Shown here piece after piece: positions 58,445 to 64,000 of a stretch of 64,000 bases of DNA. The notes below the pieces were generated by a model, which did not search any database, was not told the origin of the DNA, and was given only the letters and a program-made list of their open reading frames with translations. The stretch covers positions 1,432,501-1,496,500 of the forward strand of contig NZ_CP022121.1 of NCBI RefSeq assembly GCF_002224645.1, written 5' to 3'. Source of the stretch: Dehalobacterium formicoaceticum. GTDB taxonomy: Bacteria; Bacillota; Dehalobacteriia; Dehalobacteriales; Dehalobacteriaceae. A program made the position numbers and the translations under genes. Position 1 is the first letter of the stretch; each line of letters begins with the position of its first letter.

Positions 58445-59209
58445 CTACAAATCTTTAAGGATATTGGCTTGCTGCAGTATTTTATCCACTGCCTTCAGTG
58501 AGATCGCCTCATCAGGCAAATCAAAGAGGGGTTTACCCATAATATCATATTGGGATATTAATTTATCTCGTGGAATATCTCCAATTAACTGTAACCCAGT
58601 TTGAGCAATTTCATCAGCTAGAGATGTCAAACTGTTTTCAATCGTATGAGTAACTACTAAATAAACTTCACCAATATCAGCATGTAATTCCCGGATCAGG
58701 TCATGAATTCGTCTGGCTGTACGAATTCCCCGCGCTGAGGAATCACTGACTACAAACATTATATCAATGCGGGGAATTGTCAGTCGGCTAATATGTTCCA
58801 TTCCAGCTTCAGAATCAACCAATACAAAATCATAATTATTACCAAGGGCCTCCATAAACATTCGCAAAATGTTATTAGGATAACAATAACATCCGGGACC
58901 TTGGGGATCTCCCATAGCAAAAAAATCAAAGTCAGGAGTTTTAATAACGCATTGCTCCAGTTCAGTCAAAAAAGGGGCTTTGAGTGTTTTATCCTCAAGT
59001 GTCTTGATATTCTTGTTATCCTCAATAAGTCCGGAAATAGTAAAAGTGACTGTTATTCCTAAGGCCTCATTTAAATTTGCATTAGGATCGGCGTCGACAG
59101 CCAAAATAGAAGCTTTCCTTTTTTCACGTATCATTTGCCTTAACATCAGAGTTATAAAGGTTGTTTTTCCCACGCCGCCCTTTCCAGCTACAGCAATATA
59201 TTTTACCAA
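58445..59209 (-). CDS. cooC: CooC-type CO dehydrogenase maturation ATPase
   Basis: 254 aa MinD/SIMIBI-class ATPase. Deviant Walker A VAGKGGVGKTTF (about 7-18), VDADPNANLNEALG, the metal-binding CxC in GPGCYCYPNN, DFVLVDSEAGMEHISR (Walker B) and VVSDSSARGIRTARRIHDL. CooC inserts Ni into the C cluster of CO dehydrogenase. It is 1.5 kb from the cooS-like gene but on the opposite strand, and GGAGGGGT precedes the start. Confidence 0.92.
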   Translation of the reverse strand: MVKYIAVAGKGGVGKTTFITLMLRQMIREKRKASILAVDADPNANLNEALGITVTFTISGLIEDNKNIKTLEDKTLKAPFLTELEQCVIKTPDFDFFAMGDPQGPGCYCYPNNILRMFMEALGNNYDFVLVDSEAGMEHISRLTIPRIDIMFVVSDSSARGIRTARRIHDLIRELHADIGEVYLVVTHTIENSLTSLADEIAQTGLQLIGDIPRDKLISQYDIMGKPLFDLPDEAISLKAVDKILQQANILKDL

Positions 59210-60676: not shown

Positions 60677-60753
60677 CCATAATCTTTTTTGCATAAATCA
60701 CCTCAGACTTTGGAAAACTTCATTAAGAATGATCTTTTTTAGGAGGGATTTTT

Positions 60754-62667
60754 TTGGATGGGACGATTATGGAAAAGAGCCAGGGGCGCGTTAGTTATCA
60801 TGATTCTGTTGAGGAGATGGTTAAAAGGATCCGGGAAGATGGGTTAAGTAACGTTTTTGATCGTTATGCGGCTCAGGAAAAGATTCGGTGTAAATTTTGC
60901 CTGCAAGGATTAAGCTGCAAGCTATGCTCCCAAGGACCTTGCCGGATCAGTGAAAAAGGCGGACAGGACAAGGGTGTTTGCGGGATCGGGCCTGATGCCA
61001 TGGCTATTCGGGCTTTCTTGTTACAAAATATCATGGGTGCAGGCACATACAGTCATCATGCCTATGAAGCTTATCGCACATTACGGGCTACCGGTGAAGG
61101 GAAAACACCCTTTACCATTAAGGATCCAGATAAATTAAAATGGATGTGTGAAAAGTGCGGCCTTGAGACCGATCAAGATCAAAATATGATGGCTGTTGCT
61201 TTGGCTGATTTTCTGGAAAAAGAAATGGGGAAGGATAGCGAAGATCCCAGTGTAATGGTAGAAGCTTTTGCCCCGAAAAAAAGAAAAGCTGTTTGGAAGA
61301 AACTAGGAATTTATCCCTCAGGGGTTGTGCATGAAGAACAAAATTGTGTCGCCAGCTGCTTAACCAATGTGGATGGGGATTATGTTTCTTTGTCTCTCAA
61401 AGCACTGCGATTAGGTCTGGCTACAATTTATACGGCACAAATCGGTTTGGAGATGGTACAGGATATTTTATTTGGGACACCTGCACCTCATGAAGTAGAC
61501 GTGGATCTGGGCATCATGGATCCGGATTTCGTCAATATTGTTTTTAACGGTCATCAACCCTGGGTAGGTGTTGCCACCTTGGAAAAAGCCCAGAGCCCGG
61601 AAGTACAGGAAAGGGCTAAAGCTGCCGGAGCCAAAGGTTTAAGGATTGTGGGCTCTATCGAAACGGGACAAGAGCTGTTGCAAAGATTCCCCATGGACGG
61701 CGTTTTTGTTGGTCTGATGGGCAACTGGCTGGCCATTGAGCCGTTGCTGGCTACCGGTACCGTGGATGTGATCGCCATGGAGGAAAACTGTTCCCCGCCG
61801 GCCATTGACCATTATGCGGAGAAATATCAAATTACCTTGGTTAGCGTCAGTAACATTATTGGTGTTCCCGGTTTGAAGGAAAAAATGGAATATCATCCGA
61901 GGGAAGTTTCCAATATGGCAGACCGTTTGATTGATCTGGCCATCGACAATTTCAAACAGCGCAAGGGGAAAATTGTACCAAAAGTGCCCAGGATGACCCA
62001 AAAGGCCATGGCCGGGTTTTCTACTGAAGCGGTGCTTCAAGCTTTGGGAAATAAACTGGATCCTTTGGTAGATGTGATTACGGCGGGCAAAATAAAGGGT
62101 GTGGTGGCCCTGGTCAACTGCTCCACCCTGCGTAACGGCCCCCAGGATTGGAACACCATTAATCTGGTGAAGGAATTAATCAAGAAAGATATTCTTGTGG
62201 TGAGTGCCGGCTGCGGCAATCATGGACTGGAGGTGGCCGGTTTATGTAATCTCCAGGCCATTGATCAGGCGGGACCCGGTTTGCAACAAGTGTGCAAATT
62301 ATTAAAAATACCTCCGGTTTTAAGCTTTGGCACCTGCACCGATACAGGCCGTATCTCCATGCTGGTCACAGCACTGGCGGATCATCTCGATGTGGATGTT
62401 CCTGATCTGCCCATTGCCGTGACTGCACCGGAATGGATGGAGCAAAAAGCCACCATTGACGGCGTATTTGCTTTGGCCTTCGGCACATACACCCATCTAT
62501 CCCCTACGCCCTTTGTGACTGGGGCACCAAAATTGGTACAGCTGCTTACCGCTGATGTGGAAGGTCTGACCGGGGGCAAAATTGCCCTGGGTGACGATCC
62601 GAAAGAAGTAGCAAATGGCATTGAGGCGCATATTAATAAGAAAAGACAAGGTTTGGGTTTAAAGTAA
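60754..62667 (+). CDS. cooS: CO-dehydrogenase-like protein CooS with atypical C- and D-cluster ligands
   Basis: 637 aa from a TTG seven bases after AGGAGGG; a later ATG at 60769 is too far. The B-cluster region is C46-x2-C49...C55-x2-C58...C63...C76 (IRCKFCLQGLSCKLCSQGPC); the position of the usual VCC is S54-C55. C-cluster ligands seen: NGHQP His near 268, EENCSPPA, ALVNCSTL, VVSAGCGN, FGTCTDTG. The usual GICCTGNE segment is GSIETGQE (300-307), so one cysteine ligand is missing. The catalytic Lys region APEWMEQKAT is kept. It could be a redox enzyme with a hybrid-like cluster, as in CODH-V-type proteins, rather than a true CO dehydrogenase. Confidence 0.88.
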   Translation: MDGTIMEKSQGRVSYHDSVEEMVKRIREDGLSNVFDRYAAQEKIRCKFCLQGLSCKLCSQGPCRISEKGGQDKGVCGIGPDAMAIRAFLLQNIMGAGTYSHHAYEAYRTLRATGEGKTPFTIKDPDKLKWMCEKCGLETDQDQNMMAVALADFLEKEMGKDSEDPSVMVEAFAPKKRKAVWKKLGIYPSGVVHEEQNCVASCLTNVDGDYVSLSLKALRLGLATIYTAQIGLEMVQDILFGTPAPHEVDVDLGIMDPDFVNIVFNGHQPWVGVATLEKAQSPEVQERAKAAGAKGLRIVGSIETGQELLQRFPMDGVFVGLMGNWLAIEPLLATGTVDVIAMEENCSPPAIDHYAEKYQITLVSVSNIIGVPGLKEKMEYHPREVSNMADRLIDLAIDNFKQRKGKIVPKVPRMTQKAMAGFSTEAVLQALGNKLDPLVDVITAGKIKGVVALVNCSTLRNGPQDWNTINLVKELIKKDILVVSAGCGNHGLEVAGLCNLQAIDQAGPGLQQVCKLLKIPPVLSFGTCTDTGRISMLVTALADHLDVDVPDLPIAVTAPEWMEQKATIDGVFALAFGTYTHLSPTPFVTGAPKLVQLLTADVEGLTGGKIALGDDPKEVANGIEAHINKKRQGLGLK

Positions 62668-62840: not shown

Positions 62841-63227
62841 TTGGGGGCGATTATAATTGTAAGAGAAAAGGTAAACAAAGTAGAAAGCTGTACATGTAAC
62901 ATCATTCATGAAGATGTGGTAGCTCAGGCGAAAGAGAATATGCCCCAGGAGGAAATTCTTATTGATTTAGCGGAGCTTTTTAAGATTTTTGGTGATAGTA
63001 CCAGAATCAAGATTATCTGTGCCTTGTTTACCTCAGAAATGTGCGTATGTGACATTGCTGCTCTTTTGGAGATGAATCAATCCGCCATTTCCCATCAATT
63101 AAGAATCCTCAAGCAGGCACGATTAGTTAAATATCGTCGGGAAGGCAAGGTGGTATATTATTCCCTGGATGATGAACATGTGCAACGGATTTTTGATTGT
63201 GGTTTGGTCCATCTTAATCATCAATAA
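62841..63227 (+). CDS. ArsR/SmtB-family metal-sensing repressor
   Basis: 128 aa from TTG 62841; the start is uncertain because no Shine-Dalgarno precedes it, and an ATT at 62856, eight bases after GGGGG, is an alternative. Metal ligands are suggested by ESCTCN near the N-terminus and CVCD (EMCVCDIAALLEMNQSAISHQLRILKQARLVKYRREGKVVYYSL) in the alpha3 region, the CadC/ArsR Cys pattern. It should repress itself and the CadA ATPase that follows 40 bases later. Confidence 0.88.
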   Translation: MGAIIIVREKVNKVESCTCNIIHEDVVAQAKENMPQEEILIDLAELFKIFGDSTRIKIICALFTSEMCVCDIAALLEMNQSAISHQLRILKQARLVKYRREGKVVYYSLDDEHVQRIFDCGLVHLNHQ

Positions 63228-63266
63228 TGAAGCCTAAATTTAAAAAGAAATGGGAGGAAGGAGAAA

Positions 63267-64000
63267 ATGGTTAAAGAATTTATCTTGGAAGGGTTAAATT
63301 GTGCTAATTGCGGTGCCAAGATTGAGCAGGGGGTATCCCGGCTTCCCGGCGTTACCAATGCTACCGTCAATTTTCTTAATAAAACCTTGATATTGGAAAC
63401 GGAAGAGACGGCAAACTTCCCTGAGTTAATTAGGAATACCGAAGGGATTGTGAAAAAATATGAACCTGAGGTTAACGTCATCGAAAAAAAAGAGGTAAAA
63501 ATAAAAGATGATGGGGATCAAAATGAGGAAGAAAATCAGAAAAAGCGCCTCATCTCTTTAGGACTGGGGGGAGGACTTTTTACTTTGGCTTTTCTTCCCT
63601 TCTGGAGTCCCGGCATCGAGTTTGCTTTGTTTCTGTTAAGTTATCTTATTGTCGGCGGGGAAGTGCTGATGCGCGCCGGTAAGAATATCTTGCGGGGACA
63701 GGTCTTCGATGAGAATTTCCTGATGTCCATTGCCACCCTGGGTGCTTTTGCTATTAGGGAATACCCGGAAGGTGTGGCGGTGATGCTGTTTTATCAGATC
63801 GGGGAGTATTTTCAGGATCGGGCGGTGGGTCAATCGAGAAGATCCATTAAAGCCTTGCTCGATATCAGACCGGAGTATGTCAATTTGTCTTTCAACGGGG
63901 TAATTAAGAGAGTATCTCCGGAAGAAGCGGCCATTGGGGATATGATGATCATCAAGCCCGGGGAAAGAGTGCCATTAGACGGAAAAGTACTGGAAGGCCA
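63267..64000 (+). CDS. cadA: CadA-type heavy-metal P1B-ATPase (N-terminal part, runs off window)
   Basis: At least 244 aa; the gene continues past the window end. N-terminal metal-binding domain with LNCANCGAKIEQGV (CxxC), an acidic linker (DDGDQNEEENQKKR), the first helices, FDENFLMSIATLGAFAIREYPEGVAVMLFYQIGEYFQ and the start of the A domain at IIKPGERVPLDGKVLEG. This is the Zn2+/Cd2+/Pb2+ branch (CadA/ZntA). GGGAGGAAGGAG precedes the ATG. Paired with the ArsR gene. Confidence 0.92.
   Translation, partial: MVKEFILEGLNCANCGAKIEQGVSRLPGVTNATVNFLNKTLILETEETANFPELIRNTEGIVKKYEPEVNVIEKKEVKIKDDGDQNEEENQKKRLISLGLGGGLFTLAFLPFWSPGIEFALFLLSYLIVGGEVLMRAGKNILRGQVFDENFLMSIATLGAFAIREYPEGVAVMLFYQIGEYFQDRAVGQSRRSIKALLDIRPEYVNLSFNGVIKRVSPEEAAIGDMMIIKPGERVPLDGKVLEG

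Follow-up and report, generated by a model that had tools for sequence, protein, structure and literature searches.

A CO dehydrogenase-like protein of Dehalobacterium formicoaceticum with the ligand set of the CooS-V hybrid cluster and a conserved upstream element

Does a protein that databases label a CO dehydrogenase (CODH), and in which a cysteine of the C cluster is replaced, still oxidize CO, and if it does not, what is its job? The question is raised by an open frame in a stretch of 64,000 nucleotides of the Dehalobacterium formicoaceticum genome (contig NZ_CP022121.1, positions 1,432,501 to 1,496,500; hereafter the window). The CO-metabolism reading is easily made from the label and is wrong for the CooS-V sub-clade of the family. 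The wider question is the job of a hybrid cluster inside a CODH scaffold. The frame is intact, with 637 codons from a TTG, from which the residues are numbered here; an alternative in-frame ATG at 60769 would give 632 aa. In this numbering the translation bears out what the first-pass annotation had read: GSIETGQE at residues 300-307, with the cysteine missing there; C46, C49, S54 and C55 at those residues; and EENC, VNCS, SAGC and FGTC where they had been placed.

The best match in the PDB is CooS-V of Carboxydothermus hydrogenoformans (CooS-V_Ch; 7b7q, E 2.5e-262, 874.8 bits), the second being 6t7j at 429.4 bits. Full-length identity is 61.4% to CooS-V_Ch vs. 30-38% to active CODHs. An AlphaFold model, built from 24 sequences and with a mean pLDDT of 88.8, has the CODH fold (Z 54-57 to several CODHs). 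Its top-ranked Foldseek match is CooS-V, and its agreement with 7b7q_A (Z 61.3, rmsd 1.1 Å, 627 residues, 61% identity) exceeds that with every CODH. The profile of hybrid cluster proteins (HCPs), TIGR01703, gives 48.9 bits, below its cut-off of 360.8. Judged by its sequence, the window protein is of the CooS-V type and falls into structural group D-1 of clade D. The closest structure, CooS-V, and the full ligand set thus support the earlier suggestion that the protein resembles CODH-V and has a hybrid cluster without Ni. The altered residues are those by which an already published group is defined. The anomaly was known because the features of group D-1, in which Glu stands for the first C-cluster Cys, the D-cluster is of type III and Tyr replaces His, were described by Inoue et al. 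(2019; PMC6344411). The window protein has all three, and none of the features tested sets it apart from the group.

Without a gap, Glu303 occupies the position of Cys295 when the protein is aligned with Ni,Fe-CODHs (6t7j and both canonical CooS of the same genome). No replacement cysteine flanks it in this alignment. Five of the six C-cluster residues are retained, as is Lys565, and the Ni,Fe-CODH ligand set (five Cys and one His) is therefore incomplete. Three more substitutions, absent from the first-pass annotation, put Glu563 where the canonical residue is Ser, Asn345 where it is Gln and Tyr99 where it is the acid-base His; each is common to CooS-V and to 82/82 relatives. The acid-base pair of Ni,Fe-CODHs is broken, with Lys565 kept and His replaced by Tyr99, and Glu563 and Asn345 restore HCP-like residues around the cluster. 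Every cluster ligand of CooS-V is found, and all ligand types of the hybrid cluster (His, two Glu and four Cys) are present. The D-cluster motif is of type III, Cx2Cx5C (C46-KF-C49-LQGLS-C55), with C49 for Gly and Ser54 for the usual Cys (Table 1).

Table 1. Features of the locus, in window coordinates.
Feature	Position	Strand	Basis or remark
Promoter-like element TTTTGCATAAATCACCTCAGACTTTGGAAAACTTCATTAAGAATGATC	60687-60734	+	kept upstream of most CooS-V genes; putative function
Shine-Dalgarno AGGAGG	60741-60746	+	7 nt before TTG; read from sequence
CooS-V-type (clade D, structural group D-1) hybrid-cluster protein gene	60754-62667	+	637 aa from TTG
C46-x2-C49, bridging D cluster ligands	60889-60900	+	[2Fe-2S] by homology to CooS-V (PMC9311411)
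C55, C58, C63, C76, B cluster [4Fe-4S] ligands, unchanged	60916-60981	+	alignment
Tyr99, position of CODH acid-base His	61048-61050	+	alignment
His267, active-site cluster ligand (CooS-V His259)	61552-61554	+	alignment
Glu303, in place of C-cluster Cys295 (CooS-V Glu295)	61660-61662	+	alignment
Asn345-Cys346, HCP/CooS-V-type NC for CODH QC (CooS-V Asn337-Cys338)	61786-61791	+	alignment
Cys456, cluster ligand (CooS-V Cys449)	62119-62121	+	alignment
Cys487, cluster ligand (CooS-V Cys480)	62212-62214	+	alignment
Cys528, cluster ligand (Cys521, persulfide-bearing in oxidised CooS-V)	62335-62337	+	alignment; PMC9311411
Glu563, second carboxylate ligand (CooS-V Glu556, HCP Glu494; Ser in active CODHs)	62440-62442	+	alignment

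The protein has 80 relatives in GTDB genomes, at 75-85% identity and across Clostridia. In an alignment of 82 orthologues, which includes the window protein and CooS-V_Ch, Glu303, C46, C49, Asn345 and Glu563 are invariant (82/82); residue 54 is Ser or Thr, and all other cluster residues are invariant as well. Since they are kept throughout the 82 orthologues, the substitutions are not a matter of chance.

With CooS-V_Ch the window protein shares the fold, the full hybrid-cluster ligand set, Cx2Cx5C and the Tyr for the acid-base His. It differs in belonging to a sister sub-clade and in the second shell (EENC for DMNC, APEWMEQK for APMYMEQK). The HCPs (class III, 7e0l, and classes I/II) are alike in Asn-Cys, in a ligand of the Glu563 type and in the alignment of the cluster cysteines, and 7e0l matches the fold at Z 29.8 and 3.1 Å. 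However, the identity to the HCPs of the same genome is about 23%, the HCP Glu ligand is out of register with Glu303 in the sequence alignment, and HCPs are without an interfacial cluster. The CODH of D. vulgaris (group E-2, 6b6v) has a [2Fe-2S] D-cluster and the same Cx2C gain, but it has Cys at 295, a Ni,Fe cluster and CO activity, and is 34% identical.

The structures of CooS-V_Ch (PDB 7B7Q/7B7T/7B95/7B97/7B9A; Jeoung et al., 2022; PMC9311411) revealed a [4Fe-3S-nO] hybrid cluster whose arrangement changes with the redox state, a bridging [2Fe-2S] cluster and a channel whose gating is redox-dependent. The protein has neither Ni nor CO activity, and its sub-clade is marked by Glu in place of Cys295 and Cys in place of Gly41 (PMC9311411). 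In the literature we found no purified protein from the sub-clade of the window protein, the characterised CooS-V_Ch being 61% identical. The family, ligand set, fold, conservation and genome distribution are established here, and the cluster chemistry, channel gating, CO inactivity and slow hydroxylamine reduction are carried over from CooS-V_Ch.

We consider it very probable that the window protein is a homodimer of the CooS-V type, with the CODH fold and a Ni-free Fe/S/O hybrid cluster, which does not oxidize CO and reduces a small oxidised substrate. By homology, electrons would enter at the bridging [2Fe-2S] D cluster, held by C46 and C49 of both subunits, and would pass through the [4Fe-4S] B cluster to the hybrid cluster. 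The latter, a redox-morphing [4Fe-3S/O] cluster, would be held by His267, Glu303, Cys346, Cys456, Cys487, Cys528 and Glu563. When this cluster is reduced, the sulfur of the Cys528 persulfide would shift into it and open the gas channel; a small oxidised substrate could then bind the reduced cluster and be reduced, and the oxo-bridged state would re-form. The steps up to the behaviour of the cluster were demonstrated for CooS-V_Ch only. For the cell, the protein may be a low-potential reductase or a redox-responsive stress protein, a role for and against which we find the chances evenly balanced.

What might the substrate be? The first-pass annotation had offered hydroxylamine, and the protein could serve as an additional HCP that detoxifies hydroxylamine or NO, the ligands being HCP-like and an HCP being also present in 37/37 genomes examined (that of the window and 36 other carriers). 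Such a role appears unlikely, and hydroxylamine is not supported as the natural substrate: CooS-V_Ch turns it over very slowly, at 0.13 per second with a kcat/KM of 20 per M per s, less than HCPs and even the CODH of R. rubrum; NO reduction was not detected, and the redox potentials lie about 300 mV below those of E. coli HCP (PMC9311411). Among 249 genomes sampled evenly from the phylum, HCP co-occurrence is not enriched (37/45 with CooS-V vs. 146/204 without, Fisher p = 0.19), and the association, not being significant there, was dropped as a functional link. CRP/HcpR-like sites (TTGTGA-N6-TCACAA) lie upstream of only 2 loci vs. 0.7 expected.

The main alternative to a reductase is a redox sensor or regulator, in which the rearranging cluster would inform a partner of the redox state. 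The redox-dependent gating of the channel in CooS-V_Ch (PMC9311411) is consistent with such a role, as are its proposal for clades C and D (PMC13056359) and one lineage without the cluster ligands that keeps the scaffold and the B and D clusters. No conserved regulator or partner gene adjoins the gene, however, and the invariance of the whole ligand set argues for chemistry at the cluster; we hold sensing in place of catalysis to be improbable.

Far less credible is an active Ni,Fe-CODH that tolerates Glu at Cys295. The NCBIfam CODH equivalog TIGR01702 does score 873.9 bits, above its cut-off of 478, and the retained C-cluster residues and Lys565 would suit such an enzyme. But the C295A and C295E variants of CODH-II, made in E. 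coli, are Ni-deficient and CO-inactive (PMC9311411), CooS-V_Ch is as devoid of Ni and CO activity, and the window protein has Tyr for the acid-base His and Glu for the Ser near Lys. Decay into a functionless CODH paralogue is scarcely conceivable. The loss of the canonical Cys295 might point to it, as might the case of C. autoethanogenum, in which knock-out of the clade D gene (cooS2; PMC13056359) has little phenotype and leaves autotrophy possible (PMC4895105). But the frame is intact at 75-85% identity across Clostridia, the invariant ligands already contradict it, the upstream element is conserved and the gene is retained in genomes without other CooS.

The genome itself (3.77 Mb, one contig) has two other CooS, with the canonical His-Cys-Gln-Ser set, and two HCPs; the organism therefore does not rely on the window gene for CO or for HCP chemistry. 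Beside one of the canonical CooS genes is a 460-aa frame that looks like a subunit of the Wood-Ljungdahl/ACS cluster. The window gene is preceded by a ZIP transporter and followed by an ArsR regulator and a heavy-metal ATPase (62841-63998, +). Next to CooS-V loci no conserved operon partners or regulator genes were found, and the neighbors vary by lineage. ArsR and the heavy-metal ATPase are found together no more than 6 kb from CooS-V at about 8/81 loci; their orientation varies, and the association was not considered functional. A CooC-like ATPase (AAA_31/CbiA; 58445-59209, -) is encoded 1.5 kb away from this CooS, which should have no need of nickel; near other CooS-V loci it was not found.

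CooS-V is the sole CooS (threshold E 1e-40) in 13 of the 36 named genomes that carry it (G004, G007, G010, G014, G015, G018, G020, G021, G024, G028, G031, G032 and G036). In the even phylum sample, 11 of the 45 CooS-V genomes are without another CooS. It should be noted that these counts cover the CooS type, with Cdh-type CODHs outside, and that many of the genomes are drafts. According to Jeoung et al. such genes occur only together with other CODH genes (PMC9311411), a statement that fails in the present sample on account of the 13 genomes.

An unsupervised search of 69 non-redundant upstream regions yielded a motif some 80 nt ahead of the start codon, (G/A)TACATAtTTA-N7-ttt-atGaGnAAACTTnnTATAG, in which TACATA and AAACTT are spaced by 24-25. 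The score of the element is above the 99th percentile of shuffled sequence in 50/69 loci, of which set 41/69 had helped build the matrix. Outside the training set it scores 17.3 at L207 (a Carboxydothermus-type CooS-V) and 24.0 at L211 (closely related to a training sequence), vs. 5.6 for the 99% null; at thirteen other D-1 loci outside the set it is below the 99% null. The element is present upstream of most of L006-L085. In its own genome the strict pattern occurs once, and in a profile search of 20 genomes the site upstream of CooS-V is the top match in most, with weaker matches elsewhere. A regulon of the element was considered and set aside, the strict pattern being single and the profile search topping at the CooS-V site. 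No shared palindrome was found upstream of CooS-V loci, none of the known regulator sites sought there (CRP/FNR/HcpR, Rex, Fur, PerR, CcpA, CooA, NikR and sigma54) was clearly enriched, and Rfam gave chance matches only, under the gathering scores. The element is asymmetric and specific to CooS-V genes, and from its position and conservation it may act as a promoter.

Tentatively, and with somewhat more doubt than confidence, we propose that CooS-V is a stand-alone, separately regulated class of enzymes, independent of CO metabolism, and that its genes have an asymmetric promoter element of their own, shared by Carboxydothermus, Clostridium and Desulfosporosinus. If so, knowing the protein that reads this element would show what induces the gene and thereby hint at the natural substrate. 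The CooS-V-only genomes and the conserved element are clean material for tests by expression, deletion and DNA affinity. Together with a lineage lacking the cluster cysteines, they are our additions to published work, and modest ones.

In a tree of 61 rows (L215, translated in a wrong frame, left out), the 38 rows with Glu303 are all on one side of a single branch (support 85/61, 86% of bootstrap trees). A set of 33 rows holds both the window protein and CooS-V_Ch (99/100), and the window protein's sub-clade of 19 rows (100/99) stands beside that of CooS-V_Ch. The root is unsafe, given the long HCP branch, and the direction of the change between Cys and Glu is not read from the tree; the literature has CooS-V either derived from CODHs (PMC9311411) or near the ancestral state (PMC10502027). 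The rows were given clade names by comparison with residue patterns described in PMC6344411. Groups D-2 to D-4 and clade C (L185-L196, L198 and L217) resemble the window protein in already having the HCP-like Asn345 and Glu563, and Tyr or Asn at 99, but differ in having Cys at 303; the four sampled sequences assigned to clade C also have Gln for Lys565. The His-Cys-Gln-Ser set (or His for Ser) is limited to the E/F-type sequences sampled. The type of cluster in CODHs of D-2 to D-4 and clade C is worth attention.

One relative of CooS-V, L179 (G206:C21:59435-61318, -), is an intact protein of 628 aa, 67-69% identical to its nearest normal relatives. It retains His267, Glu303 and the cysteines of the B and D clusters, and has Gly or Ser at the positions of Asn345, Cys346, Cys456, Cys487 and Cys528, and Asp for Glu563. 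Its residues mark it as a putative CooS-V scaffold without the active-site cluster, found in one genome.
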